A stretch of DNA of 64,000 bases, taken from Closterium sp. NIES-65. Taxonomy: Eukaryota > Streptophyta > Zygnematophyceae > Desmidiales > Closteriaceae. Both the position numbers and the translations under genes were made by a program. How positions within the stretch are numbered: the first letter of the stretch is position 1; each line of letters opens with the position of its first letter. The notes beneath the pieces are model-generated. The model made no database searches. It saw only the letters and a list, made by a program, of their open reading frames with translations, and was not told the origin of the DNA. Shown here in pieces: positions 159 through 38,156 of this stretch. The DNA lies in assembly GCA_948144175.1 (NCBI GenBank), contig CANXME010002104.1:312501-376500 (forward strand), in the 5' to 3' direction.

Positions 159-2779
159 GCGTTGGAGGAGGCGTTTGGTCGCGGCCGGCAGAGAGGAGCC
201 GCCTCAGGAGGCGCCCCCACCATGCAGTTCGGACAGGTGCGCCTTGCTCTCTGAACCTGCAATGTTGTTACCGCCGGCAGTGCTGGCCGAGCCAGCCATG
301 TCTTCCCGGCACCCCTCGCCCTCCCCCTCACTTCTATCCGCTCTGCCACTCCGGTTCGCCCTCCTCTCCTCGTAAGAATGCCCTGAACACATGCACCTCG
401 CTCCCTTCCTCCCATGCCCCATGCCACGTCACCTCCCTACCCTGCCCACCCGTCCTCGTGTCCCCCCATGGGCAGGTGACGAGTGAGCTATGGCGCATGG
501 CGCTGCGCTTCCGCTTCCGCCTCCCCCCATACTACACCCTCGTGCTGCGCTCCCTCGCCTCCCTCGAAGGTGCGCTTTGCCCTCTTCCTGCGACTCCCCT
601 CCCCTCCACTCCCCTCGCTGCCACTGCTCTCCATGCCACCCTACTACACAATCATGCTGTGCTTGCCTGTGTGTCAAAGGTGGCCGTATTCCGCCTCTCT
701 GCGACCTCGCGTCGCATCTCCGTCACGCCTTGCCGCATTGAACATCTGCAACTTGAGAGTCCTCCTCCTCCCTTTTAACCGACCCCACCACCCTCCCTCC
801 TAATGAATCGATCAAAAAAATATATCTTCTGCCTCTCCCCATGCCCGTGCCCTTGCATGCAGGCATCGGTGTGGCGGTGGACCCATCCTTGCGGGTGTTG
901 GCCTGCACCTACCCCTACGCTATGGCGTCGAGTGCTCCTTCCCCCATCAGAACAACCTTCCACCTCTCCTGTACACATGCCCATCCCTGCAGGCATCGGT
1001 GTGGCGGTGGACCCGTCCTTCCGTGTGTTCGCCTCAGCCTATCCATACGTGGTGCGCCGCCTCCTCACGGACAGCTCGCCCTCGTCGCGCCACGTGCTGC
1101 GCCAGCTGGTGCAGACACGCGAGGGCAAGCTGCGGTGGGAGCGCTTCGCCTCCTTCGCTGCCAGCTCCACACAAGCCCAGCGGTACGTGGGATGAAGGCG
1201 AGGGTAGCAACACAGAGCGAGGGAGGCGGCAAGGGTGGTGGAGGGTATCAGCATGAAGCGAGGTGATCCAGTGCTCTCCTCTCATGCCAAGAGGCATTGC
1301 AACCTCTCTGTGCACTGAGAATCCTGTTCCGCCAATGTCGCTCCTCACCTCCCCCTCCTGTCCTCCGTCTCGCACCCACACTTTGCCCGTCTTCCCTCAA
1401 CGTCACCTGCTAATTCCCTCTTTCCTTGTGCCCCGTTTCTCCCTCCTGCCCCACCCATGCAGCGACCTGGTGGCATCACTGGCCATGCCGTCGCTGCAAT
1501 CCCCCATCCCCGGCATGCCCCCCATGCCCGGTGCCTCCCCCCTCTCCTCCTCCTCCGCCGCCACTGCTGGCGCCGCCTCTCCTCGCGCCACGCCCAGCCC
1601 GGCCGCGCTGGTGATGGATGTGCTGCTCTCCCGCCACGCTGCCAGCGCCCGCCGAGTCATCCTGGAGTCGGTAGGTTGCTTCCCAGTCTGTATGTGCCCC
1701 CCCTTGTTGCCAGAGTGCTTTCCCATATACCTGTCATGTTGATCTGAGAAAACTCCCCCTGGTGGCGCTGCTGATGGATGTGCTGCTCTCCTGCCACGCT
1801 GCCTGACTCATCCTTGAATTGGTACAATGCCGCTTCTCCCCTGTTCCCGACACTGCTTCCCCTCCAGCATGCCACATGCCTTCCATGCTGGGCAGTGGGC
1901 CGCAGGCTGTGCCTGCTTGTCCTGTGTCACCGGTGGACCCTGCAACTCACACATGCACGGCTCTTGCTGTCCCACTCGCCCCCACCCCCTTCCGCCCCAC
2001 CCTGAAGCTGCAGGCCATGCGTCGCTGGCTTTAACCCAACAACTCACTAGTAGCACTAGCCACTAGCAGAGGCATTTGTATCCCCGGAAACGGACGCGCT
2101 GTGCGCCTCACTGGTTCTAATCAAACAACTCTCCATCTACGTACCCACCGAACTCCACCACTCTCCGCCCCACCCCACCCCACTTCTCTCCTCCCCACCC
2201 AGGACATGCGGGCACTAGCAGAGGCGTTCGTATCCCCAGAGGCGGAAGTGGCGCGGGACAAGCTGGCGCGTGTGGTGGCAGACGCCCTGTGCGCCTCACT
2301 GGGCGTGGCCCAGCTGCCCCTCGACGCCATCACCGCCTCCCAGCTCTCCTCCTCTCCCACCCGCCTCCTCGCCCCCTACCCCCCGCCCCCCCCCGCCTGC
2401 TGCCGCTCTGGGATTCGCCAGTCAGAGACAGCCACCTGGCAGTGTTGGAGTGGCTGGTCTGTCTGGTAGTGGGGGTGGGTACGAGAGTGGGAGTGAGAGT
2501 GAGTGGGAGGAGAGGGAGGGGAGGGCGACAGCAGCGGAGGCGGTGGCGAGGAGGAAGCGGCTGTGGCTGTTGCTGGGAGCGGCGTTTGGGCGAATGGGCG
2601 GCAGTGTGGTGCTCAAGGTGAGGGTGGTGCTGGCAGCGCTGGCTGTGCTGCTTGCTGCACTGGGCCTGGCATTAAAGAGAGTGTTGTTGGATGCGGCAAT
2701 GCGCTTCAGGCGCCTCACCTCCCATTGGCTCCCCTCTCAAGACGACCCCGCAGCTGACCAGCCTGCCTATGCCACGTAG
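159..2779 (+). CDS. ABC1K: ABC1K (UbiB/ADCK-type atypical kinase) C-terminal part, 5' truncated by window edge
   Basis: Exons read from splice signals and phase: 159-236, 476-569, 993-1182, 1463-1670 and 2203 to about 2779. Joined, they give LPPYYTLVLRSLASLEG, then AVDPSFRVFASAYPY and RRLLTDSSP, followed by a basic/aromatic stretch (KLRWERF). This order is typical of the C-lobe and tail of ABC1 kinases, which in plants act in plastids or mitochondria on prenyl-lipid metabolism and stress. The kinase core lies upstream of the window. The last exon opens in the frame of DMRALAEAFVSPEAEVARDK, but a hydrophobic helix (VVLAALAVLLAALGLAL) and basic tail ending at 2779 lie in another frame. The frames meet in a poly-C tract near 2380-2397, so a one-base length error or an unseen intron is likely. 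Family call is firm; subgroup is not resolved. Confidence 0.72.
863..922 (+). repeat. Echo exon: decayed copy of the 993 exon start in the ABC1K intron
   Basis: After a good acceptor (ttgcatgcag) this segment reads GIGVAVDPSLRVLACTYPY. The true exon 130 bp downstream reads GIGVAVDPSFRVFASAYPY. The copy loses similarity after about 60 bp and has no matching donor. Confidence 0.75.
1764..1821 (+). repeat. Echo exon: decayed copy of the 3' end of the 1463-1670 exon
   Basis: The segment repeats gatggatgtgctgctctc, the 'VMDVLLSRHAA' part of the upstream exon, and ends at a GT donor-like site (ttg|gtacaa). An in-frame TGA and a short deletion have accumulated. It lies downstream of the real donor, on the side of the exon edge it copies. 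Confidence 0.7.
2058..2115 (+). repeat. Echo exon: internally deleted copy of the 2203 exon
   Basis: actagcagaggcatttgtat and gctgtgcgcctcactgg match the exon starting at 2203 (actagcagaggcgttcgtat and ccctgtgcgcctcactgg), with the stretch between them deleted. The copy sits in the intron just upstream of that exon. Confidence 0.65.
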
Positions 2780-4126
2780 GTCGAGGAGGTGGAATACCTT
2801 ACATGCTACGTAGGTAGGACTCGAGTATCTCGCAAGGGCTAGTGTGTAGCTCTTGTCTCTTTCCACCATCAGTTCTGGTGTAGGAACTGGTAATTATATC
2901 AAATTGTTGTGCTCTTTTATGGTGATTAGAATGCCATTGAATAGAGAAAGAATCTTATGCTTTCTTCACAAACGATGCCTAAAGAATCTATAACCAAGTG
3001 AGGAGGGATGTCGTTTGCATTAGGAGTAGATGAGTGAGCGTCATGCTGGGTTCATGGGTGCTCTGAGAAATTAGTTCTCCGTAGCGTTGCTATATCGTGT
3101 AAATCTACAATGGGCTTCACGTGGGGCGAAGAGTCATCCTTCAGGCCATAGAAACAAGCCACGTGTGTTTCGGCGGGCATTATCTACCAATTGGAACTCG
3201 CACGTGGTAACTTCAGTACCAAGCCAACCCGTTTTTCGTCTCCATCGCGTCAATCACTGCCTTGGGGTTGTCAACACAACACGATTCGAATGCTGGCTGC
3301 TGGCATTCAAAGAGAAATCAAACCAGGTTTGGATTGGATCTCGAAGTTGTCCTCCTCGAGTTGTTTCTTTGCCTAACCTCTCTCATCTCCACAGCAAGTC
3401 TAGGGAGTTGCGTGCTCGTTCTGCACTCGCGCCTGCAGCAGCAGTAGCACCATATCCTCTTGTCAGTCTTGCACTCGGGAACTAAATGCTCGTTACAGTC
3501 TTCCAGTGAATTGTGCTGCGAGGCCCTGAAACCACGCTCTTCTTTCCAAGAACGTCTATTTCGGTGGATTTTCAAGCGTACAACGAAGTGCGATTAGTTA
3601 GCGTTTGTTTTTTCTGCAGCATATAAGTAGAACACCGCAATGCAGTGCACTCTGACACACGGGTGACAGCCAATCGCGACGCATGCTGGCTTCCACAGAT
3701 GCTGGAAGAACTGAGCGAAGTTTCGTCGGCATCGGGCACCGTATCGCAGTGCGCCAGCTCACCCGTCGCCATGAATTCGCACTATGAATTCTCGTCGCCC
3801 TCTAGTAGCTGAACCCGCAGCGCGTTGCGGAAAGCCAGCACGCAGAAGCGGACCAAACGACCTCCGTGGGACGACCGGCGGATAGACTCCCGCGCGAGAC
3901 AAGTTAGCGGAGATCCGTGTCGCTGCTCGTTAAGAATGGCGGATGCTCGGTGAAAGATTAGAGCGGAGCCGAAGACTCTCGAGTCGCTCAATCACCTCTC
4001 GCGCATGCTTGGTGAAAGAAAAGAGCCGACCCGAAGCGTGGCGCGAAGTGAAAGTGAAAGTCGAGACAGTGAACACAAATTAGTCGCGTGGTAAGCGGAA
4101 GTTGAAGCGGAAAGAAGGCTGGGGAG
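2780..4126. other. Intergenic between ABC1K and the Raf-like kinase
   Basis: Base composition falls to near-balanced A+T and no reading frame shows family similarity. A TATA-like atataagtag lies at 3621-3630, about 500 bp before the kinase start codon. It could serve the kinase with a long 5' leader, but this is only a sequence match. Confidence 0.5.
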
Positions 4127-7028
4127 ATGGGGACGGAGGGCGGCGGAATGGTGCGCGCGGACCTGCTGGATCTGAGCACCATGGACGCGCTGGCGGGCGG
4201 GGGAGGCGCAGCCGCCAAGGGGAAGGCAGACGGGGGAGCGGCGGAGAAGGCGGAGGGCGGAATGGGTAAGGCGGCGGCGAAGGTGGCGGATGAGAGCGGT
4301 GGAGCGGCGCCGTGGACTCTGGATATGAGCAAGGTGAGTAGAGACGATTTGTGAGTATTTTCAAGGATTGTCTTTGACTAAAGAGCAGAGTGAGTTTTGA
4401 GCCGACTCAAATTACCTCTCGCCCGTTGATTTTTAAGGTCTCCTTCTCGCAACCCTGCCGTGTCCCTAGGTGATGTGCACGAACCAGCTGGCGGCGGGCG
4501 CGTTCGGAAAGGTGTTTCACGGGCTGTACGAGGGCGATGACGTGGCGGTGAAGCTGCTGAACGTGCCTGCTGACATGGCGGCCAAGGATCTGGAGGGATT
4601 GAAAAGCTCCTTCCTGCAGGAGATCAAAGTGTGGCACACACTCAGCCACCCCAACGTTGTGCAGGTACTGCCTTGTCTCACGCTTTCGCACGCCAACGTC
4701 GTGCAGGTAATGCGATGTCGCAGCTCTCGCACGCCAACGTCGCTGTCCCGCGCGAATGTCGTGCAGGTGATTCACCGTCGCAAGGCAACGTCGTGCTGAT
4801 AACAACATGGAATGGACCTAGCAATTTGGAATGCTCTGTAGTGTGCCTCCCCATCCCCTTATCACTCGCTCCCACCGCATCTGCCCCCCTCCCCTCTTTC
4901 CCTTCTCCCTTCCCATCTTTCGCCTCCCCTTCCTTCCGCCCTCCCCTTTTTCCTCCCCCACCCCTGCCCCCCTCGCCAGTTCATCGGCGCGTCGCTGAAC
5001 GCGGGGAACATCCGCGCGCCGAGCGACGCGAAGCCGCCGCCGGGACAGCCGCTGTGGGCGATCGTGACGGAGTACATGGGGGGCGGCACGCTGCGCGGGT
5101 ACCTCGCCCGCCGCGGCAAGCTTCCGCCCAAGGAGAGCGTCCGCCTCGCGCTGCACATCGCGCGCGGCCTCTGGTGCGCCGAAAGGGGGGAGTGGGGAGG
5201 AAGGGGAGTGTAAGAGAAAGAGGGGTGGTTGGGATGGGTGAGGGGGTTGGGCATGGAGGAGGGTGGTTGGGGCAGGTTGGGAAGGAAATAGATGAGAGCT
5301 GGGGGTTGGTGGCATGAATGGCCGTTGATGGAGGAGAAAGTGGTTGTCGCCCCGGGTTTTCGCCCCTCTTTCTCCCCGCACCTCTCTCCCCTCCTCCTCC
5401 TCTTTCCCCCTTCCACCCCCCCTTTCAACTTTCCAGCTACCTGCATGCGCGCGACGTGGTGCATCGCGATCTCAAGTCCGACAACCTGCTGCTGGACCAC
5501 AAGGGCACCGTTAAGATCGCCGACTTTGGCGTCGCGCGCACGGAGGCCAAGAACCCCAACGACATGACGTGCGAGACCGGCACCGTGCGGTGGATGGCGC
5601 CTGAGGTGAGGCGGTGGGGGTGGAGAGTGGGAGATGAGTGAGTGCATGGGTGTTGAGGGTAGGAAGGGCGCGCACGGAGGCCAAGAACCCCAACCACATG
5701 ACGTGCAAGACTGGCACCGTGCGCTGAATGGCGCCCGAGGTGAGCTGGCCAGTGTGCTGCATGTGAGTACATGAGATGCGTGCGTCCCTCCATACATACA
5801 CCCATCCATACATGCCCCCATACATGGCCCCATGCATCCCCCATGTGCCCCCCGCGCGCCCTTCATGTGCCCCCCATGCGCCCCAATGCGGGCCCCATGC
5901 ACTTCCCCATGCATGCACCCTCCAATGACACAAACCTTCCCCCAACCCCCCACAAACTTTCACACATAGGTGATAGACCACAAGCCGTGCCCACGCAGCG
6001 TGGACGTGTACAGCTTCAGCAGGCATGCTGCCTTGGAGAAAATTACAATTCACTCCCCGACTCCCCTTTCTGCTCCCTCCCCCTACCCCTGCTTCTCACA
6101 CGCACAGCTGATCGACCACAGGCCGGACACATGCAAGGTGGACGGGTACAGCTTGGGAGAGCATTATGCTGTGGGTCACTCGCATTTCACTCATCAATTC
6201 CCCTTCCCATCCGCACCCCTCCCCCCCTCCCCCTCTGTGCAGGTGATAGACCACAAGCCGTACACACGCAAGGTGGATGTGTACAGCTTCGGCATCGTGC
6301 TGTGGGAGCTGGTCAGCAGCGACCTGCCGTTCAAGGGGCTCACCTTCATCCAGCTCGCCTTCAACGTCGTTAACAAGGTGGGTGGGATGGGATGCATGCT
6401 TGCACACTTGTCAACACGGTCGGGGGTCGGGCGGTGGGCGGGTGAGTCTGAGATGAACTGTGGGCGCACAGGGAAGCATTCGTTTGCACAGATAAAGTGT
6501 TGTAGAACGAACACAGGAACGCAGAGAATGGAGAGCAGATAGCAGAGGGCAGAAAGAGTGTGTGCAGGCTGGTGGTAGAGGTTGAAGAATCCAGCTCTGC
6601 ACACTGCTGCCTTCATGCCCCACTTGTGCCTCCAGTGCCTGCCCCCATGCTTATCCCCATGCCCGTCATTATGCCCATCCCCATGCCTCTACACATGTGC
6701 CCTCGTGACTTTTCATAATGCTCACCCACCGCTTTTTTCCCTTTTCAAGTGACGACCAAGCAACCTCCCCTTTGATAGCTTCATCTTCCATCTCCTCCAT
6801 CCCGTCATCCCCACCCACTCCCCTCCCCTCCTCCCCCCATCACAGAACATGCGGCCGGAGGTGCCAGCGGGGTGTGAGCCAGAGCTAGCAGCGTTGATGC
6901 AGGAGTGTTGGGATGCGGATGCGGAGAAGCGCCCTGAGTTCACACAGGTGGTGGCCCGCCTGGAGGCGCTGCAGCAGGGCCTGGGCGGCACCATGGACGC
7001 ACAGGGTGGGTGCTGCACGCTGCTCTGA
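4127..7028 (+). CDS. Raf-like protein kinase (plant group C MAPKKK-like), six exons
   Basis: Exons 4127-4333, 4470-4664, 4980-5173, 5437-5605, 6243-6377 and 6846-7028 join in phase to 360 residues. A Gly/Ala-rich head of about 65 residues precedes WTLDMSK and the kinase domain: Gly loop [15 protein letters not shown] lysine, [21 protein letters not shown], catalytic loop [39 protein letters not shown], and a C-lobe ending near [22 protein letters not shown] with [10 protein letters not shown] is typical of plant Raf-like kinases of group C (HT1/ATMRK1 relatives), soluble Ser/Thr kinases of stress and CO2 signalling. By eye it is nearest ATMRK1-like members because of VWH..HPNV and EAKNPNDMT. 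All catalytic residues are present, so it should be active. Start chosen as the first ATG giving an open exon into GTGAGT. Confidence 0.9.
4680..4766 (+). repeat. Three echoes of the exon-2 donor edge in kinase intron 2
   Basis: Exon 2 ends ccccaacgttgtgcag|gtactg. Just downstream are gccaacgtcgtgcag|gtaatg (about 4692-4709), a truncated cgcacgccaacgtcg (about 4729), and gcgaatgtcgtgcag|gtgatt (about 4752-4769). Two of the three retain a donor-like GT. Confidence 0.75.
5668..5739 (+). repeat. Echo exon: copy of the kinase activation segment with a stop codon
   Basis: The last 72 bp of exon 4 (activation segment through the APE motif) recur 130 bp downstream, ending gcgcccgag|gtgagc. The copy has cgctgaatg where the exon has cggtggatg, so it has a premature TGA. 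The donor context is preserved. Confidence 0.85.
5970..6040 (+). repeat. Echo exon 1 of kinase exon 5
   Basis: After cacacatag the segment reads [18 protein letters not shown]. The real exon 5 at 6243 reads [18 protein letters not shown]. Similarity is confined to the exon's first 60-70 bp. Confidence 0.85.
6108..6175 (+). repeat. Echo exon 2 of kinase exon 5
   Basis: After cacacgcacag the segment reads [17 protein letters not shown], a second, more diverged copy of the start of exon 5. Both echoes keep their own acceptor, so exon 5 is preceded by two further potential 3' splice sites. Confidence 0.8.
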
Positions 7029-8160: not shown

Positions 8161-9602
8161 TTACTGAACTGGAGCCATCCTGCAGCCACCATACCGCCAT
8201 GCCACTATCCTGCCATGCCACCATGCGACCACCCCAGGCCTGTACTCACAGAGAGCAGCAAAGCAGGGCTGGGAGAGGGCGGGGTCCTCGGAGAGGGGAG
8301 GGGGCATCTGGCCGAACACCATCTCACAGCTCATGTTCTCAAAGTCTGCCCACGGGTGGGGAAGGAGGGGGTGTGGTGGGAGGGTGCGTGGTGGAACATA
8401 GGTGGTTGTGCGAGAACATGCTTGGGTGAGAGCATGGCAGAGAGCAGAGCAGATCGGCGAAGAGGGAAGGGAGGCGTGCAGTGAGGGAACTCAACCAGAA
8501 CAGCAAAGCAAGGGAGTGCAGCAGCTTGCAGTTGAGCAGGGTAAGCTTTCAAGAAGAGTCAGCAGCAGTGTCAGTAGTGCTAGGGTGGGACGTAGTGGGT
8601 GTCATGGTGAGGGGGAGACGGACTGGGTGTCATGGTGAGGGACGTACTGGGTGTCATGGTGAGGGACGTACTAGGTGTCATGGTGAGGGACGTACTGGGT
8701 GTCATGGTGAGGGACGTACTGGGTGTCATGGTGAGGGACGTACTGGGTGTCATGGTGAGGGACGTACTGGGTGTCATGGTGAGGGACGTACTGGGTGTCA
8801 TGGTGAGGGACGTACTGGGTGTCATGGTGAGGGACGTACTGGGTGTCATGGTGAGGGACGTACTGGGTGTCATGGTGAGGGACGTACTGGGTGTCATGGT
8901 GAGGGACGTACTGGGTGTCATGGTGAGGGACGTACTGGGTGTCATGGTGAGGGACGTACTGGGTGTCATGGTGAGGGACGTACTGGGTGTCATGGTGAGG
9001 GACGTACTGGGTGTCATGGTGAGGGACGTACTGGGTGTCATGGTGAGGGACGTACTGGGTGTCATGGTGAGGGACGTACTGGGTGTCATGGTGAGGGACG
9101 TACTGGGTGTCATGGTGAGGGACGTACTGGGTGTCATGGTGAGGGACGTACTGGGTGTCATGGTGAGGGGGAGCCCAAAGTCGTTGGTGAAGAAGTCCTG
9201 AGTGGGCAGCTTGCACATGTTGACGCACATGCCCACACACCCACTCACCTCCAGGTACCTGCTTGCACCGCACCGCAAGGAGGATGGGAAAAGGAGAAGG
9301 GGGAGTAGCAGAGTGGGGCGTATGTTGTGGCGCGTACAGAAGGGGTGCAGACACAGAGGGCGGGTGAGAGTGGCAAGCGGGGTAGCTGGTAGGTCAGTTT
9401 GATGACCCAAGTCTGTGTGTTTGGTGAGGTGACAATGGGGAATGCCAAGTGGAGCATGAGGCATGCAACATGAAGAAACAGATGGGAAGTGGTGGGAAGA
9501 GGTGGGCAGAGGTAGGGAGGAGTTTGTCACCTGCACTTGGTGATCTGCACGCCGCTCATCTGCTTCTGCCCGTTCACCTCCACCTCCTTCAGCTGTCCCC
9601 GT

Positions 9603-9639
<37 letters not shown>

Positions 9640-12079
9640 TGGGTAACAGCAGCAGTAGAGCATGGAGGGCAGGGCGGACGCACCGAGAGAGGGACATACC
9701 GGGTGCAGGATACGAACGAGACAGCGTTATCAGCATACGAGGAGAGGCAGAGTGAGGAGCAGGGACATGGTGGGGTGCACAGAAAGACTGGCATGCACGC
9801 AAAGCAGCAGTGGGACACATGGCATGGAGCATGGTGCAGCATGAGTGGCACGGCATGCAAGGCATCTGGCTGAAGTGGCACAGCGCACCTGGCAGGGCCC
9901 CACGAGCCACTGGAAGGCGCACCTGGCAGGGCCCCACGAGCCACTGGAAGGCGCACCTGGCAGGGCCCCACGAGCCACTGGAAGGCGCACCTGGCAGGGC
10001 CCCACGAGCCACTGGAAGGCGCACCTGGCAGGGCCCCACGAGCCACTGGAAGGCGCACCTGGCAGGGCCCCACGAGCCACTGGAAGGCGCACCTGGCAGG
10101 GCCCCACGAGCCACTGGAAGGCGCACCTGGCAGGGCCCCACGAGCCACTGGAAGGCGCACCTGGCAGGGCCCCACGAGCCACTGGAAGGCGCACCTGGCA
10201 GGGCCCCACGAGCCACTGGAAGGCGCACCTGGCAGGGCCCCACGAGCCACTGGAAGGCGCACCTGGCAGGGCCCCACGAGCCACTGGAAGGCGCACCTGG
10301 CAGGGCCCCACGAGCCACTGGAAGGCGCACCTGGCAGGGCCCCACGAGCCACTGGAAGGCGCACCTGGCAGGGCCCCACGAGCCACTGGAAGGCGCACCT
10401 GGCAGGGCCCCACGAGCCACTGGAAGGCGCACCTGGCAGGGCCCCACGAGCCACTGGAAGGCGCACCTGGCAGGGCCCCACGAGCCACTGGAAGGCGCAC
10501 CTGGCAGGGCCCCACGAGCCACTGGAAGGCGCACCTGGCAGGGCCCCACGAGCCACTGGAAGGCGCACCTGGCAGGGCCCCACGAGCCACTGGAAGGCGC
10601 ACCTGGCAGGGCCCCACGAGCCACTGGAAGGCGCACCTGGCAGGGCCCCACGAGCCACTGGAAGGCGCACCTGGCAGGGCCCCACGAGCCACTGGAAGGC
10701 GCACCTGGCAGGGCCCCACGAGCCACTGGAAGGCGCACCTGGCAGGGCCCCACGAGCCACTGGAAGGCGCACCTGGCAGGGCCCCACGAGCCACTGGAAG
10801 GCGCACCTGGCAGGGCCCCACGAGCCACTGGAAGGCGCACCTGGCAGGGCCCCACGAGCCACTGGAAGGCGCACCTGGCAGGGCCCCACGAGCCACTGGA
10901 AGGCGCACCTGGCAGGGCCCCACGAGCCACTGGAAGGCGCACCTGGCAGGGCCCCACGAGCCACTGGAAGGCGCACCTGGCAGGGCCCCACGAGCCACTG
11001 GAAGGCACACCTGGCAGGGCCCCACGAGCCACTGGAAGGCGCACCTGGCAGGGCCCCACGAGCCACTGGAAGGCGCACCTGGCAGGGCCCCACGAGCCAC
11101 TGGAAACCGGGCACTGTGATGGCGGCGTTGATCTCCGCCGACCACTTGCTGGGCGGGAACCACTTGCGGAACTGGGGGGAGTGGGGTGGGGAGAGAGGGG
11201 CGGGGAGAGGGGGGTTGGGTAAGAGGTGGCGTGGGAAAGAGGGCGAGTGGGGCCGCAGAAGGGAATGAAGTGATTGAAAGGCGTGGGGAATGTAGGGAGA
11301 GCGAGGAGAGCAGCGGGGCTGGGGAGAGAAGCGAGTGCGGCGGTGCAGCGTGCATGCACATTCGAGAGAGCAGAGCACGCATGTGTGGGGCAGCAGCAGG
11401 AGGAGTGACGGGAGGCGGGCTGTTCACAGTGGCAGGGGCGTTGGGTGGCAGCAGCGACACGAGCACGTTGGCCACGATGGCGCGCTGCTCCGCGGCTGAC
11501 CGCCCTTGCATCACCCGCCGCGACACCTCCACGAACGCCTCGTACCCGCGCTTCCTCGTCGCCACCTCTGATTCCTCGTGCCGCCGGGACGTCATGTCGT
11601 CATGCCGCCATGCCACCATGCCGCCATGCCATGAAGCAGGAGGGGAGCAAGAGGCACAGTTGGTCACACATTCAAGAAACCGCCATGCATCGTTTATTTC
11701 AGCTGAGCACGCCCAAACGTGTCTGTAACCACCACTCACCACTCATCACACCTCACCGCTTACGACTCTTATCAACGCTCACCGTGCGGCACCGCTCACC
11801 ACCGATTTGTTGCTCCATCTTGCGGCGGAAGAGCCCCATGAGCGCGAGGTCGATGAACGAGTCGTTGTACCGCGTCACCTGCCCCATCGGCGCCGGCTCC
11901 CCGCCCGCCTCCGCCACGCCCGCGCGCACCCCCTGCGCCGCGCGGCGCACCGCCCCGCGCATCATCCCCCGCGGGTGGAGCGGCAGGGAGGAGGCGCGGA
12001 AGGGGGAATGGCGCGCGGCGAGGCGAAGGGGCGGCGGAGAGAGCGCGGAGTGGCATGGTGGCGCAAGCGATGCCGCCAT
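8161..12079 (-). CDS. D27: DWARF27-like beta-carotene isomerase, plastid, six exons
   Basis: Minus-strand exons 12079-11800, 11567-11428, 11171-11079, 9592-9531, 9258-9152 and 8345-8161 (stop TAA) join in phase to 288 residues. Residues 1 to about 45 resemble a plastid transit peptide. Then come [67 protein letters not shown], the Cys-rich [26 protein letters not shown] and [20 protein letters not shown]. This is the D27 order; D27 enzymes isomerise all-trans to 9-cis beta-carotene at the head of strigolactone/carlactone synthesis, in the chloroplast. Two introns are inflated by arrays grown from their donors (9889-11078 and 8596-9151). The last exon holds a strong donor-like site (ctct|gtgagtac near 8243), so the C-terminus may differ. 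Confidence 0.88.
8596..9151 (-). repeat. Donor-anchored array, about 24 copies of a 24-bp unit, D27 intron 5
   Basis: On the gene strand each unit is the last 16 nt of exon 5 (ctcaccatgacaccca) plus the first 8 nt of the intron (gtacgtcc). The true junction is 9152|9151. Downstream are 22 exact-length units, then a 28-bp variant and a terminal copy. Each unit recreates a strong GTACGT donor. Because 24 is divisible by 3 and there is no stop, unspliced reading gives LTMTPSTS repeated. Confidence 0.93.
9889..11078 (-). repeat. Donor-anchored array, 35 copies of a 34-bp unit, D27 intron 3
   Basis: Exon 3 ends ttccagtggctcgtgg...ccctgccag and the intron begins gtgcgcc. The unit is those 27 exon bases plus 7 intron bases. 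From the true junction (11079|11078) to 9889 the spacing is exactly 35 x 34 bp. Copies are almost identical (one visible change near 11007). Each copy encodes FQWLVGPCQ before a donor and also presents ccttccag as an acceptor-like site. Confidence 0.95.
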
Positions 12080-12884: not shown

Positions 12885-15800
12885 ATGCGCGCCACGGCCA
12901 CGTGGCAACGCGTCCTTACCTCCGTGTGCTCACGTTTCCTTCGTTCTCATGATCCCTCATTATGCCCGCCTGTCCCTGTCCGCGCTGCCTCCCTTCCACC
13001 CGCCCGCACCAGCAGCGCATTGGCGGCGGGTGACGATCGCAGCGCGTGCGCGGCGGAACTGCTGCGATTCCTGGAGGAGGTGAGCGTGGCGAGGTGTGAC
13101 TATAATCAAATGGGTGAACGAGGTGCGATTATGAGGAGGTGAGTGAAGCGAATTGAAGATCCGCTGCTGCTGCCTCCGCCTCCTCCCCCGCTTTCTCTCC
13201 CTCCCTCCCCCATCCCATCCGTCCGCCCTCACGTTCTCATGCGCCTGCCTGCCCCCCACCCCCCAACCGTGTCCCCCCAACCGTGTCCCCCCAACCGTGC
13301 CCCCCCACCCCACCCTCTTCAGGGCGGGGACGTATTCGACTTCCCCTTCTCCGCCCGCCTGCCGTCCCCCCTCCTGCTGCCGCTCTCCCCCGCCTCCTCC
13401 CCGTCCCCCTCTCCCCCACCCTCTGCGCCCACCCGGTTCGACCTTCCGACGTGCCCCAGGTGCGCTCACGCCCCTCATGCCCCAATCGTCCCCCAGGTGC
13501 GCTCACGCCCCTCATGCCCCAATCGTGCCCCAGGTGCGCTCACGCCCCTCATGCCCCAATCGTCCCCCAGGTGCGCTCACGCCCCTCATGCCCCAATCGT
13601 CCCCCAGGTGCGCAGCCCACTTGTGGTGAACTGTGGACTTTTAGAGAGCACTGCAACCATGCGCTCTCCATTCACCCCCACCGCGCCACACATGCACTCC
13701 TTTGGCTCTGCTTGCTAAGAGCTTCCTGTCCCTCCCTGCCTCTGCCGCACGTCCACTTGCCTGTCTTCACTGCGCTGCCCTCTGCTCTGCTCCCTCCGTC
13801 CTGCCATGCCCCCTGCCGTGCGCACTGCCTGCAGCCCTGCCGCGGAGCATGCAAGGGAGGATGGTGTGGAGGACGAGACACAGGATGGCGGCGAAGCAGC
13901 AACACTAGATGAGAGTGTGGTGGGGGAGCAACAGGGGACGGAGGGTGGGAATGGAGGAGGAGGAGGTGAAGGGGAGGGGGATGAGGAGGAGGAGCGGGAG
14001 GAGGAAGGGGAGAGGCGGCGTGCATGTGAGGTTGATGCTGATGTGGGTGGGGGGGATGGGAGGAGCATTGGAGGAGCTTTGAGTGTTGATGCTGCTGACG
14101 CTGCTGATGCCGGTGTGAATGCTGATGCTCATGCGCATGCTGCTTCTGATGCGGTTTCTGATGACGATGATGGCACAGCTGACGTTGTGTGCATGGACAC
14201 GGATGAAGATACCTGCACCGCAGCAGACCCCCCTCAACCCCCCCACACCGCCACAAATGCAACCCCTCCCAGCGCGGGCGCGGGTGAGGAGGAGGAGGAG
14301 GGGGCGGGCGAGTGTGTGGTGGTGACGCTGCAGGTGGGGGCGCCCCTGCAGGCCATGCTGCACTCGCACTCGCACATGCTCGCCCGCCTGCACTCCACCC
14401 TGCCCCCCCACGCCCCGCGCCCCCGCCCCCTCGCCTCCTCCCTCTCAGGCGCCCCCATCCCCGTTGAGGTCACCCTCCCCGCCAGCCCCCCTGGTGGTTC
14501 CGCGCAAGGGGAGCTGGGGGAGGGGAAGCGGGGAGAGGGGAGCGGAGGGGGCGCGGGTGGTAGCAGGGGTGGCAGGGAGGGGGCGCAGGAGGAGAGAGGG
14601 CAAGGGGAGGGAGGGGTGGATGGGTGGCGGTCGGGCATTGGAGGGATGGAGCGAGGGAGGAAGAGGGGGAGGGAGGAGGAGGGGGCGGAGGGCGAGAGCA
14701 GCAGCCGCATGTACGAGGTGGGGCGTGCCCACTCACAAGCACACGCGCTGCCTGCTGGGGAGGCGGGTGGCGCGTCAGAAATCCAAAGGGAGATGGGAGC
14801 TGGCACTGGTGGTGCCGGCAGTGGCAATGGTGGGGGCAGCGGCGGTGGTAGCGGGAGCGGTAGCGGTGGTGGGAGCGGCAGGGGTAGGGCAGGAGGGGGA
14901 GGCGGGCAGGGTAGCAGCGAGGGGGGGGGAAGGGCAAGCAGCTTCAGCGGGCATGAGTGGCAGGCAGGGCAAGTGCAGCAGCGGCACGCGCCTACAGCAT
15001 CCAGAGACCCTCTCGGGCTGCTGCTCACACAGCAGCGTGCCCCTCCACCCACCCCCCACGCGCCCCTGTCGCACGTGCCCGTGCCCATCCCCATGCCCGA
15101 CCCCTCCTCTGTGCCCATCCCCACCGTCTCCTCCTCCTCCGCCCTCGCCGCCTCCCCCTCCGCCCTCGCCCCCTCGCTGCCCTCGCTGCCCTCCCTCGCC
15201 TCGCTCTCCTCTCTCCTGCCTGATGCTCTGGAGGGAGCGCGGACTGACGCGTGGGGGGAAGGGGGCGGGGCTGGGGGGAGTGGCGGGGGCAGGGGAGGAG
15301 AGGCCGTGGCAGGGGCAGGGGGAGGAGAGGGCGAGGGGGGCCGTGGGGGAGCGGGAGTGGCTGGGCGGGCAGCAGCAGGCGGGGCAGGGTGGAGTGGGTG
15401 GGGCGGCGGTGGAGGAGGGGCGGATGGGGGTGCAGCGGCAGGGGGGGGCGTGGGGAGGACGGGGGAGGCGGGGGAGTGGGTGGCGAGGCATGTGTGGGAG
15501 GGGAGGCGGGCGGAGGAGGAGGAGGGGCGGAGGCGGGGCGAGCTGGCTGCAGCGGCAGCGAGGGCGCATGAGGAGTGCGTGCTGGAGGAGGCTGACGGCA
15601 TCTGGGTGAGTGGGGGGGCAGTGTCGTCAGTGGGTCAGGGGTCGGTGTGTTGCGGTAGGTACAGGGCGTGGTAAGACAGTGAGAGAGGGTGGTGGGGCAG
15701 TGACACATACTTACCCATTCTCCTCCACTCTCTCCGCCCCCCACCTCCCCCTTCCTCAGGCCAACCGTTGCCTGCTCGCTGCAGCTTCCCCTACTGCCAC

Positions 15801-21800: not shown

Positions 21801-24800
21801 TCCCACCTCCCCCTTCCCCAATGCTATCCCTCTTCGCATCTCTTCTTCTCTCCCCCACCAGCCACTGGCTCTCAGCCTGCTGCGATAACACCCTCGCTGC
21901 ACCCCCACACCCATGTGCTCGCTGGGGCGAGGAAGCAGGGGCAGGCAGAGGGCGGGGAGGGGGGAAGGCTGGAGACGGATGGTAGAGATGGGGAGGCATG
22001 GGCGGAAGGCATGGGGCGGGCCGATGGCGAGGTGGGCGGCGGGAGGAGGGACGTGGCGGCGGGTGGCATGGGCAGGGAGGCGAAGAAGAAAGGCAGCAAG
22101 CGACAGTCGGTGAGTGGCAGCAGGCAGGGAGACATTCTAGGTGATACACACAACTGTGGCTCCAGTGTATGACTTCCTCTCACGCTAATGCTTCAAGTTT
22201 TGTCCCTACTTTTACCCACATTCAAACTCTCGCTAGTTCTGTTCTGCCACACCCCTCCCTGCCCCTCCCACTCTCCAGTCCCCCCACCATCTGCCCTCAC
22301 CGCCAGGAGCGCACGCCCTGCCACCTGCCACCACACCCTCGCAAGTGGAGGCAGCAGGCGCTCTCCCTCTGCCGCCCGCCCATGGCGATGTGCTGGGCGG
22401 GTCCCCGGGCAGCATGGACCTCGCTGCTGCACGCGTGCCTGGCAGCGATGTTGCTGATGATGCTGATGGTGCTGATGACGCCCTGCCATGGTCTCCCATG
22501 GAGGAGCAGGTGCGTGCATGCCATGACATGGCCATGGCCATGGTGTCACATGCCTCGTTCGTAAGCACGTATCCTTGTTGTTCCCCCCCGCGTCTCACGT
22601 TCCATTCGGCCACAATCTTCCATCACTGACCCCTCCCCGCGGTGTGCGCTGCTGGCAGGTGCTGCTGGCAGAGGTGGGCGAGCTGGATTTTGAATGCCAA
22701 GCCTCTTCCCTTGTGGTGTGCCGTGCTGGCAGGTGCTACTGGCAATGGTGAGCGACCTGGGCACCAACTGGCGCCTTCTTAATCGCAATGCCCCCCCTTC
22801 CCGCCCCTCCCTCCCCATGGTGTGCCCTCCCTGGCAGGTGCTACTGGCAGTGGTGAGCGACCTGGGCACCAACTGGCGCCTTGTCACCGATGTGCTGCTC
22901 TCCATCACGCACCTCACTGTGAGCCCGCCCTCTCCATCACGCACCTCACTGTGACCCCGCCCTCTCCATCACGCACCTCACTGTGACCCCGCCCTCTCCA
23001 TCACGCACCTCACTGTGACCCCGCCCTCTCCATCACGCACCTCACTGTGACCCCGCCCTCTCCATCACGCACCTCACTGTGACCCCGCCCTCTCCATCAC
23101 GCACCTCACTGTGACCCCGCCCTCTCCATCACGCACCTCACTGTGACCCCGCCCTCTCCATCACGCACCTCACTGTGACCCCGCCCTCTCCATCACGCAC
23201 CTCACTGTGACCCCGCCCTCTCCATCACGCACCTCACTGTGACCCCGCCCTCTCCATCACGCACCTCACTGTGACCCCGCCCTCTCCATCACGCACCTCA
23301 CTGTGACCCCGCCCTCTCCATCACGCACCTCACTGTGACCCCGCCCTCTCCATCACGCACCTCACTGTGACCCCGCCCTCTCCATCACGCACCTCACTGT
23401 GAGCCCGTCCCCGGCCAGCCTTTGCTGATTCCGTGCACACACCACAGTGACCCCATGCTCTCCTCTGTGCACTGTATGCCGCCATCATGTGTTCTCATAC
23501 CCCCCTCACCAGGGCGTGTATCGCAGTCCCAGTCAGTGTGAGCGCCGTCACAGCGCCCTCCTCTCCTCGCCCCCTGTCCCCTCCTCTGCGCCCTTAAAGG
23601 TCAGTCGCATCTCCACCTTCGATTCCCCTTCCCATCCCGCCCTTTCCCCCTTCCTGCACCACTCGTTGCACATTCCAACCGCCCTCTCATGCCACTGACG
23701 AGGTCATGTGGGAACGTACTGCAGCAATGTGTAAAGTGTCACATCACCCACCCCTCGCCCCCTGTTGCCTTGTGTGCGTCGGCAGGAGGCGGGGCGGGGC
23801 GGGGGGCAGTGGGTGGGGGGCGAGGAGGACGTGTTGAGGGAGCACCGACAGGCAGTGCTGACAATCTTCTCCAAACACCATGCTCGCATGCTGGCCGTGA
23901 GTCCTTTGGAAGAAACTTAAAGCCCAAGACCTGAATTGCTCAACGCAAGTCAACGCGGGACAAAACTGTGGGCAGCGGGAGGCAAACTGTTGTAATTCGG
24001 GTTTTGGGATTTAAGTGCATGCTATGAGTCAACAAGTGAATGCTAGCCCTGATTGTACACTCACTTTCTGTTTTTTGCGTGTCTGTGCTGGGTGTGCGCG
24101 CGCGCTCGTACACGTGCGTTTTTGTGTTGACATATGCATGCGCGCATGCGTGGGGGAGCAGTTGGAGGCACAGGAGTTGAAGCAGCAGGTGCAGCCACAC
24201 GCCTCTCACCTCCTCGTCCTCTCCAACGTCGCTGCCTCCTCGCCCTCCGCGCCCATGCCACCCAGGTGTGTGTGACACGTCACCCATCCTCTGGTGCCGC
24301 CCAGGTATGTATGTATGACACGTCATCCACCCTCCTGTGCCTCTCATGTATGTACGACAGGTAACGCACTCTCCTCTGCTCCCATCTCGCCCATCCATTC
24401 CCGCTGCTACGCCACCATGCTCTCCTGTCTCTGTCACCCCACTCCACTCTCTCCCCCATCTACCCCGTCCCCATCCCCTCCTCCCCATTTCTTCCTTCCC
24501 ATTCCGTCATCACAACCCCATCACCGCTGTTTAACACATCCTCCAGTTTGCCTACCCTGTGCCCACCCTCCGTGCTCCCTGTGCGGCGCCACAGCCCCTT
24601 GGATCTCAGCAGCAGCCCCCCGCTCCCACCAGTTGATGCACCCACGCTCGCTCTCACTACTGCTGCTGCTGCCACATATGCTGCCTCGGGAGCCACACTG
24701 CCAGCCGCCACCATTGCAACAGCAGCAGCGGCAGCAGGGGCTGGCAGTGGTGCAGAGGGGGCAAGTGGTGCAGCAGTGGCATCAGCAGCGTCTGCAAACT

Positions 24801-26403: not shown

Positions 26404-26439
<36 letters not shown>

Positions 26440-27510: not shown

Positions 27511-27556
<46 letters not shown>

Positions 27557-29417: not shown

Positions 29418-30506
29418 ATGGCGGGTGCTCTTGCCCTGCGCGTCCCCGTGGCGGCGGCAGCCGTGCCGGCCGCCGGCCTGACTCAACCCGCTGTACACTC
29501 CCTAAGGCGCGCCGCACTCGTGCCGCTGCGTGTACGTCAAGCCGCCTCACTCGCCGCGCAGCAGCAGGCGAAGCGCGGTGCCGTAGTAGCGCCGCGCAAC
29601 GTGGCAATGGCTGATTCGCTGACGGCGGAGGAGGAGGGCGCGGCGCGTCAGTCGTACCCGGCGGGCGTGCATCGGTACGAGGCGATGGTGGTGCTGCGAC
29701 CCGACCTCACGGAGGACGAACGCGTCGCGCTCACCGAGCGATACGAAGAGGTGTGTCGCAGGGATGGAGGGATGCGACGAGGTGCGTCGCAGGGACGGAA
29801 CGATGCGACGAGGTGCGTCGCAGGGACGGAACGATGCGACGAGGTGCGTCGCAGGGACGGAACGATTCGACGACGTGCGTCGCCGTCGCGCGACTGTGCG
29901 CGCATTCCGCTTTCCCCTGTTAGCCCTTCACGACCCGGCCCTCTGTCGGTCATTCGCTTGTACGAACCCCGACTGTGCCGTGTTTCTTGCTTCTCTCCCT
30001 TCGCCCTCGCAATTTTCCCCTGTCTTCCCGCTCACTCTTCCCCGTGTATACGCACCCCTCTCGTCTGCACTCACTTCATGTGCACTCCCCTCATGCGCAC
30101 TCCCCTCATGCGCACTCCCCTCATGCGCACTCCCCTCATGCGCACTCCCCTCATGCGCACTTCCCTTCTGCGCACTACCCGCATCGGCACTCCCCTCAAG
30201 CACACGTCTCTCATGCATCCTTCCCCCCTTCCGCTCCCCCTCCCCCCTCCCCCCCCCCACTTTCCGCACGTGCAGTTTCTCGTGGCGGGCGGCGCACTGG
30301 ACGTGGAGATCTTCAACCGCGGCATGCAGCCTTTGGCGTATAGCATAAAGACAAAGAACATGGGCGGCGTGATGAGCCGCTACCTGGACGGCATCTTCTT
30401 CCTGTTCATCTTCGCCGCGCGCTCCGAAGCGCAGGTGAATCTGCAGCAGCGCCTCAACCGCGACGATGACGTCATCCGCTCCACCACCTTCCGCCTCAAG
30501 GCGTGA
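29418..30506 (+). CDS. bS6c: Plastid ribosomal protein bS6c, two exons
   Basis: Exons 29418-29750 and 30276-30506 join in phase 0 to 187 residues. An Ala/Val/Arg-rich presequence without acidic residues covers about 1-60 and fits a plastid transit peptide. The mature part reads YEAMVVLRPDLTEDERVALT, then FLVAGGALDVEIFNRGMQPL, AYSIKTKNMGG, YLDGIFFLFIF, and LNRDDDVIRSTTFRLKA at the end. This is the bS6 fold with the conserved MVVLRPD strand, the R/G..LAY loop and the DDVIR tail. bS6 sits in the central domain of the small subunit next to bS18. The donor after RYEE seeds a short array. The ATG chosen is the first in the frame with a good presequence. Confidence 0.93.
   Translation: MAGALALRVPVAAAAVPAAGLTQPAVHSLRRAALVPLRVRQAASLAAQQQAKRGAVVAPRNVAMADSLTAEEEGAARQSYPAGVHRYEAMVVLRPDLTEDERVALTERYEEVCRRDGGMRRGASQGRNDATRCVAGTERCDEVRRRDGTIRRRASPSRDCARIPLSPVSPSRPGPLSVIRLYEPRLCRVSCFSPFALAIFPCLPAHSSPCIRTPLVCTHFMCTPLMRTPLMRTPLMRTPLMRTPLMRTSLLRTTRIGTPLKHTSLMHPSPLPLPLPPPPPHFPHVQFLVAGGALDVEIFNRGMQPLAYSIKTKNMGGVMSRYLDGIFFLFIFAARSEAQVNLQQRLNRDDDVIRSTTFRLKA
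29751..29877 (+). repeat. Donor-anchored array, about 4 copies of 31 bp, bS6c intron
   Basis: The exon ends gatacgaagag|gtgtgtcgcaggga. Downstream, gatgcgacgag|gtgcgtcgcaggga recurs three times and then a decayed copy appears. The unit joins 11 exon bases (two changes) to 20 intron bases. Confidence 0.9.
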
Positions 30507-34454: not shown

Positions 34455-35075
34455 CGACTGGCGACGGGGCATGGCCGGGGCGGGGTCGGGGCCGAAGTGG
34501 GCGACGGGGCCGCAAGGGTGGGCGGGGCCGCAGGTGGCGACGGGGCCGTAGGTAGGCGACGAGGCTGGGGCCGCAGGTAGGCGACAGGGGCCAGAGGCCG
34601 CAGGTAGGTGACGGGGCTGTGGCCGCAGGTAGGCGACGGGGCCGTAGGTAGGCGACGGGGCCGCAGGTAGGCAACGGGGCCGCAGGTAGGCAGGTAGGCG
34701 ACGGGGCCGTAGGGCCGCGGGTAGGAGACGGAGCCGGGGCCGCAGGTAGGCGACGGGGCCGTAGGTAGGCGACGGGGCCACAGGTAGGCGACGGGGCCGC
34801 AGGTAGGCAGGTAGGCGATGGGGCCGTAGGGCCGCAGGTAGGAGACGGGGCCGTAGGGCCGCAGGTAGGCGACGGGGCCGTAGTTAGGCGACGGGGCCGC
34901 AGGTAGGCGACGGGGCCGGGGCCGCAAGTAGGCGACGAGGCCGGGGCCGCAGGTAGGCGACATGGGCCAGAGGCCGCAGGTAGGTGATGTGGCCGGGGCC
35001 GCAGGTAGGCGACGGGGCCGTAGGTCCGCAGGTAGGCAACGGGGCCGTAGGGTCGCAGGTAGGCGACGGGGCCGT
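34455..35075. repeat. GC minisatellite, about 20-bp unit
   Basis: Variants of gcaggtaggcgacggggcc repeat irregularly about 25-30 times, with longer compound units including 'aggtaggcaggtaggcg'. Each unit contains CAG|GTAGG, a donor-like hexamer, but I found no exon attached to it. Confidence 0.85.
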
Positions 35076-35171
35076 AGGGCAAGGGGCACGTCACGGGGCG
35101 TGCCAAACACAGATTAGCAGCGGAAGCTGTAGGGTGGGCCACAGGTCAAGACCTTGGTCACTCTGATAACA

Positions 35172-35546
35172 TGTCAGAATCCCAACCACTAGACCATTGG
35201 GATAAAAGGGCTTATTTCAGTAGTGGGTCAGTGCGCCCATAACCCCCCAGGCGAACGCGCCTGTAACCCTCTCTAGGATCAATCGGGCATCCACAGTGCA
35301 GATCTACTGACACCCCCCGATACTGGGAGGCCCAGGACTAAGCACAGCGGCAACGGCCTACATGTGCATACACAGGGAATCGAACCCGAGACCGCTCTGA
35401 TACCATGTCAGAATCCCAACCACTAGACCATTGGGATAAAAAGGCTTATTTCAGTAGCGGGTTAGTGCGCCCATAACCCCCCAGGCGAACGCGCTTGTAA
35501 CCCTCTCCAGGATCAATCGGGCATCCACAGTGCAGATCTACTGACA
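35172..35546 (-). mobile_element. TRIM-type miniature LTR retroelement
   Basis: Two 141-bp direct repeats, 35172-35312 and 35406-35546, differ at five positions by eye and each begin TGTCAG and end CTGACA. Between them are 93 bp. Read on the minus strand, the upstream LTR ends ...TGACA and is followed at once by TGGTATCAGAGCGGTCTCGG, the usual plant primer-binding site complementary to initiator Met tRNA. The interior ends in a G-rich polypurine run directly before the next TGTCAG. No coding sequence. LTR, primer site and polypurine tract in 375 bp fit a terminal-repeat retrotransposon in miniature. No target duplication is seen, and a second primer-site-like sequence (tgttatcagag) lies just beyond the other LTR. 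Confidence 0.85.
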
Positions 35547-35549
35547 GCC

Positions 35550-35755
35550 ACGTCTACTTCTGTAATTACAACAGCAACACCAACACCAACAGTAGCACCA
35601 GCAGAGCCAACAGCAGCACCAGCAGAGCCAACAGCAGCACCAGCAACGGCAGCAGCAGTGGCAGCCGCAGCAGGTGTGCCACTCACTCTGCTACCACCAG
35701 CAGCAGTTGGGTCTTGCAATCCGCCTGCACACCCCCCCTCAACTGCTTGACATCT
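35550..35755 (+). other. Ala/Thr/Pro-rich open fragment beside the TRIM
   Basis: From acgtctacttctgtaatt a frame reads TTATPTPTVAPAEPTAAPAE and continues Ala-rich to a stop near 35750. Composition resembles the EAF1 C-terminal repeats, but I cannot tell whether it is a gene fragment or a simple repeat. Confidence 0.3.
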
Positions 35756-36500: not shown

Positions 36501-36508
36501 GTCGCCGC

Positions 36509-37448: not shown

Positions 37449-37621
37449 CTGGGGCAGTTGTGTTGTGTGGTCTTGCCCGACCCCGTCTAGCCGCACACCA
37501 GGCTGGCAGGGCTCCCCCCACTGTACCTTTTCCCCCCACCGCATGCACCCTCCCCCCCACCCAAACGCACCTGGGGCACTTGTGTGGTTTGCCCAACCCA
37601 TCTCGCCATACACAAGGGTGC
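37449..37621 (-). repeat. Duplicated exon-like segment with CAG|GTGCGT donors
   Basis: Two segments, 37502-37449 and about 37621-37571 on the minus strand, align through gtgtgcggctagacggggtc versus gtgtatggcgagatgggttg and both end tgccccag|gtgcgt. The 54-nt copy is open (GVRLDGVGQDHTT), the other reads VYGEMGWANHTS. I cannot say which, if either, is used. Confidence 0.6.
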
Positions 37622-37656
37622 CAAGGCCACCCCCATGCACCTCTCCCCTCAGACAC

Positions 37657-38156
37657 CTCTCGCTCTGAGATGGTACCCATGCGGTAGAAGTGGACGTAAA
37701 AAATTCCCCACTGCTGCACTGCCCCGTGCTGGTGCCACTTCGCAGAGATGCCCCACGCCCACTCCTGCCGAGGGTGAAGATGGCGGAGGAGGGAAGGAGG
37801 CTGTTCTTGTGCGGTTCTGCCTCGTTTTACCCTATGCGCTGTATGTACCACCAATTGACTACATAGTATCTTCTTGTTGCCGGTAACGACCAAGCTCATC
37901 ACTGGGCACACTACCTGGTGTCTGGGCGGCACGGGTGGCAATCGTACCTGCTGGCTGGGCGGGAAGAATAGAGGTCTCCAAAGATGGTGGGACGCGCGTT
38001 GGCAAGGCCACTCCACCCCGGGATCTGCGCGTTGCTGCACACATGTACAGTATGCTAGTGGGTTGAGCGGCTACATACCTGCTGGCTGGGCGGCAGGGGG
38101 TAGTGGTCCCCAAAGATGGTGGCGCATGCGTTGGCGAGGCCGCTCCACCCCGGGAT
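37657..38156 (-). CDS. Unidentified minus-strand gene, two clear exons
   Basis: Exon 38156-38079 (78 nt) reads IPGWSGLANACATIFGDHYP then LPPSQQ and ends cag|gtatgt. Exon 37764-37657 (108 nt), after ctcggcag, reads EWAWGISAKWHQHGAVQQWG, then IFYVHFYRMGTISERE. Both have multiple-of-three lengths and proper splice edges. I do not recognise the family. Downstream on the same strand there may be an exon ending cccaactg...cccag|gtgcgt (two copies, next entry). 5' and 3' ends are not defined. Confidence 0.55.
37948..38024 (-). repeat. Echo exon of the IPGW exon, frameshifted
   Basis: 77 of the 78 nt of exon 38156-38079 recur 130 bp downstream on the gene strand, with the same acceptor end (gcgcag|atcccgggg) and donor end (cagccagcag|gtacga). 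One base is missing, so the copy is out of frame. Confidence 0.85.

Follow-up and report, generated by a model that had tools for sequence, protein, structure and literature searches.

In this work we analyzed a stretch of 64,000 nucleotides (the window) of the genome of the streptophyte alga Closterium sp. NIES-65 (assembly GCA_948144175.1, contig CANXME010002104.1, positions 312,501 to 376,500) and found that introns of several of its genes contain displaced copies of the edges of their own neighbouring exons, splice site included. These copies range from diverged single echoes to tandem arrays of up to 36 units. We consider it probable that they are minisatellites of the type called 'mirages' in amphioxus, which would arise by a general process of tandem duplication, be filtered by selection and be kept out of the mRNA by splicing at the outermost site.

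Exon edges recur in their own introns

Exon models for six genes yielded 34 introns, every one of them GT-AG, and thus 68 exon edges; the candidate minus-strand gene near 38 kb was excluded from the edge statistics. Each edge, consisting of 100 exon bases and 12 intron bases, was aligned to its own intron, and alignments of the edges to other introns served as null. At an off-diagonal rate of 0.006 or lower, a displaced copy was present in the own intron for 12 of the 68 edges (0.41 expected), and none of the 68 reverse-complemented edges gave a match at this rate. The 12 edges are seven donors and five acceptors, spread over 10 of the 34 introns. For the acceptor of EAF1 intron 6 the match is a pyrimidine tract of low complexity and was discounted, leaving 11 edges in nine introns. 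At a rate of 0.1% nine of 68 edges had a copy (0.07 expected), and at 0.02 there were 16 (1.36 expected; one reverse-complement match). Chance similarity was rejected, as the matches of edges to their own introns lie far above both the off-diagonal and the reverse-complement controls. The central statement of a preliminary description of this DNA, that introns hold copies of their own exon edges together with the splice site, is therefore borne out.

The position of the copies was analyzed with exon 40-mers at a score of at least 20. At the edge itself 4 of 34 donor-side and 4 of 34 acceptor-side 40-mers matched. Deeper in the exon no match remained, at depths of 60 bp or more on the donor side (0 of at most 24) and of 100 bp or more on the acceptor side (0 of at most 18). 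Edge 40-mers compared with other introns gave no match in 2244 trials. When the edges were aligned to their own exons, 1 of 64 matched, and this single match is the Raf intron 4 echo viewed from the other side. The copies sit in introns, and most of them include or almost reach the exon edge; in intron 4 of the ABC1K-like gene the aligned parts end 27 and 10 bases short of it. By this test about a quarter of the introns carry copies of their own edges, and up to a third once Raf intron 2 and EAF1 intron 14 are added.

The donor-edge repeats are as follows; repeat units were called with Tandem Repeats Finder (TRF) where indicated, and a slash marks the splice site.

9883..11105, minus strand: D27 intron 3 donor array, 34-bp unit, 36 copies, 27 exon bases per unit (TRF)
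8587..9169, minus strand: D27 intron 5 donor array, 24-bp unit, 24 copies, CCCA/GTACGT (TRF)
22898..23407, plus strand: EAF1-like intron 11 donor array, 32-bp unit, 16 copies (TRF)
13450..13613, plus strand: EAF1-like intron 3 donor array, 37-bp unit, 4.4 copies, CCCCAG/GTGCGC (TRF)
29739..29883, plus strand: bS6c intron 1 donor array, 31-bp unit, 4.7 copies, five donors GTGYGT (TRF)
4647..4742, plus strand: Raf-like kinase intron 2 donor copies, 42-bp unit, 2.3 copies (TRF)
24257..24354, plus strand: EAF1-like intron 14 donor copies, 43-bp unit, 2 copies, CCCAG/GTRTGT
16870..16941, plus strand: EAF1-like intron 6 short donor-edge array, 12-bp unit CGAGGTGAGGGG, 5.7 copies, low complexity (TRF)

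In the D27 intron 3 array the copies are nearly all identical, with the donor CAG/GTGCGC in 35 of them and CAG/GTGTGC in one. The D27 intron 5 array has GT at 23 of 25 register positions, and its frame is open and reads LTMTPSTS. In the EAF1 intron 11 array the two outermost donors read GTGAGC and the 14 between them GTGACC; with a matrix made from the donors of the window these score 7.2 and 3.0, respectively. With the same matrix the copies in bS6c intron 1, except for the last one, outscore the real donor. The Raf intron 2 donor, with an alignment score of 20 and an off-diagonal rate of 0.016, lies outside the 12 edges counted at 0.006. For EAF1 intron 14 the TRF row (24269-24354) begins at the fourth intron base and was counted as intron-only; its start was extended by eye.

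Every multi-copy array found at an edge is at a donor; at acceptors the copies take the form of one or two long echoes. Of the range from a single echo to arrays of 15-35 copies given in the preliminary description, the arrays hold for donors only. The significant echoes share 83-92% identity with the segment from which they derive. The following echoes were found:

5668..5744, plus strand: Raf-like exon 4 donor echo, 72 exon and 5 intron bases, displacement 134, 71/77 identical
5968..6160, plus strand: two Raf-like exon 5 acceptor echoes, starting at about 5968 and about 6108, real exon from 6243
848..919, plus strand: exon 3 acceptor echo of the gene called ABC1K, displacement 130, 60/72 identical, spans the junction
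616..661, plus strand: exon 2 weak donor echo of the gene called ABC1K, displacement 110, 34/46, score 18, rate 0.03
1758..1803, plus strand: exon 4 donor echo of the gene called ABC1K, displacement 160, 41/46, alignment ends 27 bases before the junction
2061..2094, plus strand: exon 5 acceptor echo of the gene called ABC1K, displacement 152, 29/34, alignment begins 10 bases inside the exon
22655..22814, plus strand: two EAF1-like exon 11 acceptor echoes, real exon 22838-22918
37947..38159, minus strand: candidate minus-strand gene, exon-like segment 38159-38081 and diverged copy 38035-37947, by eye

The Raf exon 4 echo has an internal stop codon, and its junction motif occurs twice in the window, at 5597 and 5731. 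At Raf exon 5 the farther echo (54/62 identical) is displaced by 273, the second copy being read by eye. The nearer echo of EAF1 exon 11 spans the junction with a displacement of 104 and 83/98 identical positions; the farther copy was likewise read by eye. In the candidate gene near 38 kb both segments are flanked by AG and GT, as judged by eye.

Placement of the arrays and origin of the copies

Tandem arrays were located with TRF in the first 38,560 bases (period of at least 10, score of at least 60), and of overlapping rows the lower-scoring one was dropped. The array at 34.5 kb and the candidate minus-strand gene near 38 kb were excluded from the counts; the array at 8175-8224, at first classed as intergenic, was recounted once D27 intron 6 had been modelled. 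There are 44 non-overlapping arrays: 16 are exonic, 16 intron-only, six donor-spanning, none acceptor-spanning and six outside the modelled genes. The 16 exonic arrays are minisatellite-like and lie in exons of the EAF1-like gene (14838-28706). Of these, 15 have a period that is a multiple of three, as compared to 9 of the 28 other arrays (Fisher P 9e-5), a filter by reading frame that is directly seen in the periods. For this reason the birth of repeats seems to be blind to coding status, with selection acting afterwards. The statement that the copies are always in the intron and never in the exon is correct for the edges as such, but exon arrays with frame-keeping periods are common, and one blind birth process together with reading-frame selection explains why edge copies were never noticed in the exon. 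Introns are also occupied by arrays unrelated to any junction (30 bp x 33, 29 bp x 32 and 15 bp x 10).

As to the mechanism, we infer that tandem duplication, through slippage or through unequal or template-switch repair, would be frequent throughout the genome, inside genes (exons as well as introns) and between them. The duplications that persist within exons would mostly be those that keep the frame. A duplication spanning a splice site would persist only if the outermost site, i.e. the first donor or the last acceptor, stays in use; the extra copy would then fall into the intron, leaving the mRNA unchanged, and would presumably be neutral. The surviving pair could expand to dozens of units, shrink by unequal exchange or slippage, or decay to a single echo. 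Short donor units would be tolerated, since the first donor stays in use. In 3' splice site choice, the first AG after the branch site is selected. A short acceptor duplication should thus activate an upstream AG, and therefore only long acceptor units, bringing their own branch site and tract, should survive. The acceptor echoes of 104-152 bp fit such a survival of long units, provided that this splice rule applies.

The annotated proteins of sister strains bear on both splice choice and copy number. Splicing from the first donor of the 36- and 24-copy D27 arrays reproduces exactly the D27 protein annotated in Closterium sp. NIES-64 (P0121), while the annotated proteins P0002, P0122, P0243 and P0244 keep array copies. 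According to the accessible part of the genome report, gene prediction for these strains used RNA-seq hints (PMC10407611). The Raf protein of strain Yama58-4 (P0002) shows, at the exon 4/5 junction, read-through of a homologous, intact echo and of two further short copies; at the same place the window has one decayed echo. The D27 protein P0122 of Naga37s-1 has the LTMTPSTS unit three times ahead of the exon 5/6 junction, together with a short repetition of the beginning of exon 6, so that its gene would hold four or more copies of the 24-bp unit. The bS6c proteins P0243 and P0244 (from NIES-54 and NIES-53) continue into the 31-bp array; for NIES-54 we read about three donor copies, as compared to five in the window. 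The copies in these proteins may reflect read-through in the annotation rather than real exon; the units in the underlying DNA are evident either way. The differences between strains are observed directly at the protein level, and the differing counts at the Raf exon 4 and bS6c junctions suggest that the repeats turn over. In a scan for internal protein repeats at a score of 40, 8 of 21 Closterium proteins were positive as compared to 7 of 319 others, a result which includes some low-complexity cases and is supportive only.

Two further Naga37s-1 proteins were noted. In P0004, from a second Raf-like copy, a 17-residue segment starting from the window's exon 3/4 junction occurs twice in succession with one change; as judged from the protein, this is possibly an in-frame acceptor-edge duplication read as exon. 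In the D27 protein P0123, LLHGMAAC is repeated about nine times, and D27 intron 1 of the window has only a few GGCATGGC units there.

Several observations weigh against mirage-type minisatellites shaped by general duplication and selection. A stricter ungapped test with the 24 exon bases alone detected copies at 7 of 66 edges. The off-diagonal null peaked at a score of 46, probably owing to low-complexity pairs, so that a score in the twenties, taken singly, does not carry much weight. EAF1 intron 14 gave no significant edge alignment although its copies are visible by eye. The 12-mer array of EAF1 intron 6, which includes four exon bases and was counted as intron-only, is weak by alignment (score 20, rate 0.016). 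Two further intron arrays are not edge copies: that of EAF1 intron 7 (29 bp x 32) begins 19 bases into the intron and that of EAF1 intron 6 (30 bp x 33) lies far inside it. Units shorter than 50 bp account for 7 of 10 donor and 0 of 4 acceptor cases, but this contrast is not significant (Fisher P 0.07) and the rows were chosen by us. The splice choice was judged from annotated proteins, not transcripts, and the strain differences were likewise derived from annotated proteins rather than DNA, so that they may include annotation errors. Moreover, donor-spanning arrays exceed a uniform placement in collapsed introns, with 6 of the 22 intron-touching arrays as compared to 1.55 expected (P 0.003) and 6 of 13 as compared to 1.11 at a score of at least 100 (P 3e-4). 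For young arrays the numbers are 5 of 7 and 0.62 (P 1e-4). Random birth and selection are thus not a full account of the donors. No acceptor-spanning array is present among the 22, which is within chance (P of none 0.2) and not informative. A circular-shift test on repeat-covered bases placed 15 of 60 junctions in repeats as compared to a mean of 26.6; since a fraction of 0.996 of the shifts reached the observed value, fewer junctions lie in repeats than expected by chance. This test weights arrays by their length, and we prefer events as the unit, a choice that was made after seeing the result.

The donor excess speaks for the view that donor junctions are hotspots of duplication, owing to the splice sites or to transcription across them (nicks, R-loops or microhomology of the donor motif), and sister strains, too, have copies at the junctions of D27 intron 5, bS6c and Raf exon 4. 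Junction-targeted duplication is possible, but we regard such hotspots as unlikely. The excess remains as a post hoc result with small numbers from one window and six genes; the circular-shift test, though length-weighted, points in the opposite direction; echoes anchored to a conserved exon are detectable for longer than intron-only duplications, and this easier detection could add to the excess; acceptor arrays may be missing by chance; and copies common to several strains may be due to shared ancestry. It is a shade more doubtful still that a donor-targeted process keeps seeding copies of the 5' splice site and lengthens introns by one unit per step, the first of up to 36 near-identical donors being used. 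In long introns, donor arrays may also provide additional U1 binding sites, which would aid splicing. As regards the active boundary-duplication process that had been proposed for this DNA, the turnover between strains fits it and the donor excess would allow for a cause at the junctions, whereas duplication everywhere combined with selection, as seen in the array periods, explains much of what it was meant to account for.

The Rogers model, in which introns themselves are made by tandem duplication of AGGT-bearing exon segments, appears very improbable. AG/GT is present in many units, the EAF1 intron 3 unit combines a C-rich tract and CAG with a donor, and a boundary-crossing tandem duplication created a new intron in potato RdRp, as far as the available part of that report describes it (PMC4974935). 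The model, however, predicts introns whose 3' end carries the edge of the upstream exon and whose 5' end carries that of the downstream exon. The former was found, barely, in 1 of 34 introns (EAF1 intron 12, score 17 as compared to an off-diagonal maximum of 16) and the latter in 0 of 34, with a best score of 9 and an off-diagonal 99% point of 11; Rogers-type intron gain was rejected on these grounds. An artefact of assembly or annotation might be suspected since the longest arrays are nearly perfect and therefore prone to expansion or collapse by the assembler. We give this slightly less credit again and rejected it: the longest junction array measures 1.2 kb as compared to an N50 of 30 kb for the NIES-64 PacBio reads (PMC10407611, in its accessible part), related units occur at the same junctions in proteins from the assemblies of other strains, and echoes with 83-92% identity are too diverged for assembly duplicates. 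Finally, introner elements, i.e. related mobile introns inserted at many sites, would agree with the fact that several unrelated genes are affected within one window, but their probability is close to nil. The introns are dissimilar in sequence: blastn among the 34 introns with low-complexity filtering returned seven rows of 20-56 bp from four intron pairs, and the edge 40-mers did not match other introns. Introners were therefore rejected as well.

Relation to known boundary repeats

The preliminary description knew of no genome with splice boundaries so regularly amplified. Repeats of the same kind are, however, known as 'mirage' minisatellites from amphioxus, where they were found in Adh3, troponin C, the globin genes BflGb6 and BflGb9 and PGBD5. 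As described in the accessible parts of these reports, they are tandem duplications of 10-160 bp across intron-exon boundaries, 5' as well as 3', with AG/GT in many units; copy number varies between haplotypes, inner units are homogenised and regular splicing is undisturbed (PMC3087553, PMC3902484). Like mirages, the Closterium copies span the boundary, in six donor arrays and in the echoes of the Raf intron 4 donor, the ABC1K-like intron 2 acceptor and the EAF1 intron 10 acceptor. Both kinds of boundary are affected, and lengths are unstable, between haplotypes in amphioxus and between strains, judged from annotated proteins, in Closterium. Homogenised inner units are clear in one array: in EAF1 intron 11 the inner copies share their donor sequence and both end copies deviate from it, as described for mirages, while the D27 intron 3 copies are nearly all identical. 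In contrast to the amphioxus cases, Closterium is a streptophyte alga, has up to 36 copies per array, has all multi-copy arrays at donors, and has copies at 0.006 in 10 of 34 introns (nine without the discounted one) within 33 kb. The Closterium junction repeats thus belong to an already known kind, with the donor excess as an unexplained feature.

In human segmentally duplicated genes, variable internal tandem repeats with units of about 30 bp occur at exon-intron boundaries, the exonic ones encoding amino acid repeats, according to the available part of the report (PMC2812944). The Closterium repeats are likewise minisatellites at exon-intron boundaries with units of about this size. The human repeats, as far as that part goes, are differences between recent paralogs and were read as making novel introns, whereas the Closterium repeats enlarge existing ones. 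That repeat variation may alter splice structure, as between the human paralogs, is suggested in Closterium by the annotated proteins of sister strains. The duplication in potato RdRp, in what is accessible of its report (PMC4974935), also crosses the boundary and inherits splice signals; unlike it, the Closterium repeats show neither a new intron nor the edge arrangement of a gained intron. In our literature search, in which most subscription papers were beyond reach, no description of junction repeats in an alga was found, and the accessible part of PMC8226300 contains nothing on them. Human introns originating from tandem arrays are reportedly, judging by its title, the subject of a 2007 paper by Zhuo and colleagues.

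The D27 intron 3 array, with 36 tandem donors of which 35 are identical beside a single conserved exon, amounts to a natural experiment on 5' splice site choice, for which sister strains with other copy numbers provide the comparison. If such repeats are common genome-wide, Closterium would offer a system within the plant lineage for intron growth and for junction duplications as possible starts of introns; in the literature accessible to us these structures are described mainly in amphioxus. The contrast between periods inside and outside of exons indicates that selection, more than the mutation process, determines much of where repeats are seen. Annotators should be aware that public Closterium proteins include array copies read as exon.

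Gene models and further features of the window

The coding models of the window fit Closterium (Zygnematophyceae), as judged by their similarity to annotated proteins. Two of them are located as follows:

12079-11800, 11567-11428, 11171-11079, 9592-9531, 9258-9152, 8345-8250 and a final exon from 7753, minus strand: D27 exons
4127-4333 to 6846 onwards, plus strand: Raf-like kinase exons (exon model)

The gene names of the preliminary description proved of unequal value. D27 is backed by Pfam family PF13225 (E 1.4e-37) and by complete identity of the model to NIES-64 D27 (P0121) over 278 residues. The part of the gene called ABC1K inside the window has no Pfam match, and its name is a label only. 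The EAF1-like gene has 16 exons, of which exon 8 was lengthened to 21559 for frame continuity; it contains an HSA domain (Pfam, E 1.3e-8), the basis for its tentative name. Relatives of bS6c bear PF01250. The Raf-like model is 97-99% identical to a Naga37s-1 protein. For the 3' end of this gene there are two options, with the window side judged by eye: the frame may continue into GGCCTLL at about 7028, the ending present in Yama58-4, or may be joined by a splice to EEASCAIL at about 7449, an ending that resembles the one in Naga37s-1 (region 7005-7474).

Outside the modelled genes, an array at 34487-35099 is built from CCGCAGGTAGGCGACGGGG-like units, and a donor-like CAG/GTAGG is present in many of them. 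It is followed at 35140-35550 by a direct repeat of about 165 bp, present in two copies about 240 bp apart as seen by eye.

The right part of the window is made up of satellite and telomere-like repeats, for which reason the genes may be subtelomeric. Within 38868-63996, a 28-bp satellite of 340 copies precedes a GACGTG hexamer satellite spanning 12.6 kb. Thereafter about seven AGGGTTT telomere repeats run head to head into CCCTAAA, followed by the hexamer satellite in inverted orientation. This inverted arrangement may be due to a telomere fusion, to a palindromic end or to a folded-back read; the two arms of the hexamer satellite, aligned over 2.5 kb, gave a score of 1742 as compared to 934 for a hexamer-shuffled control.

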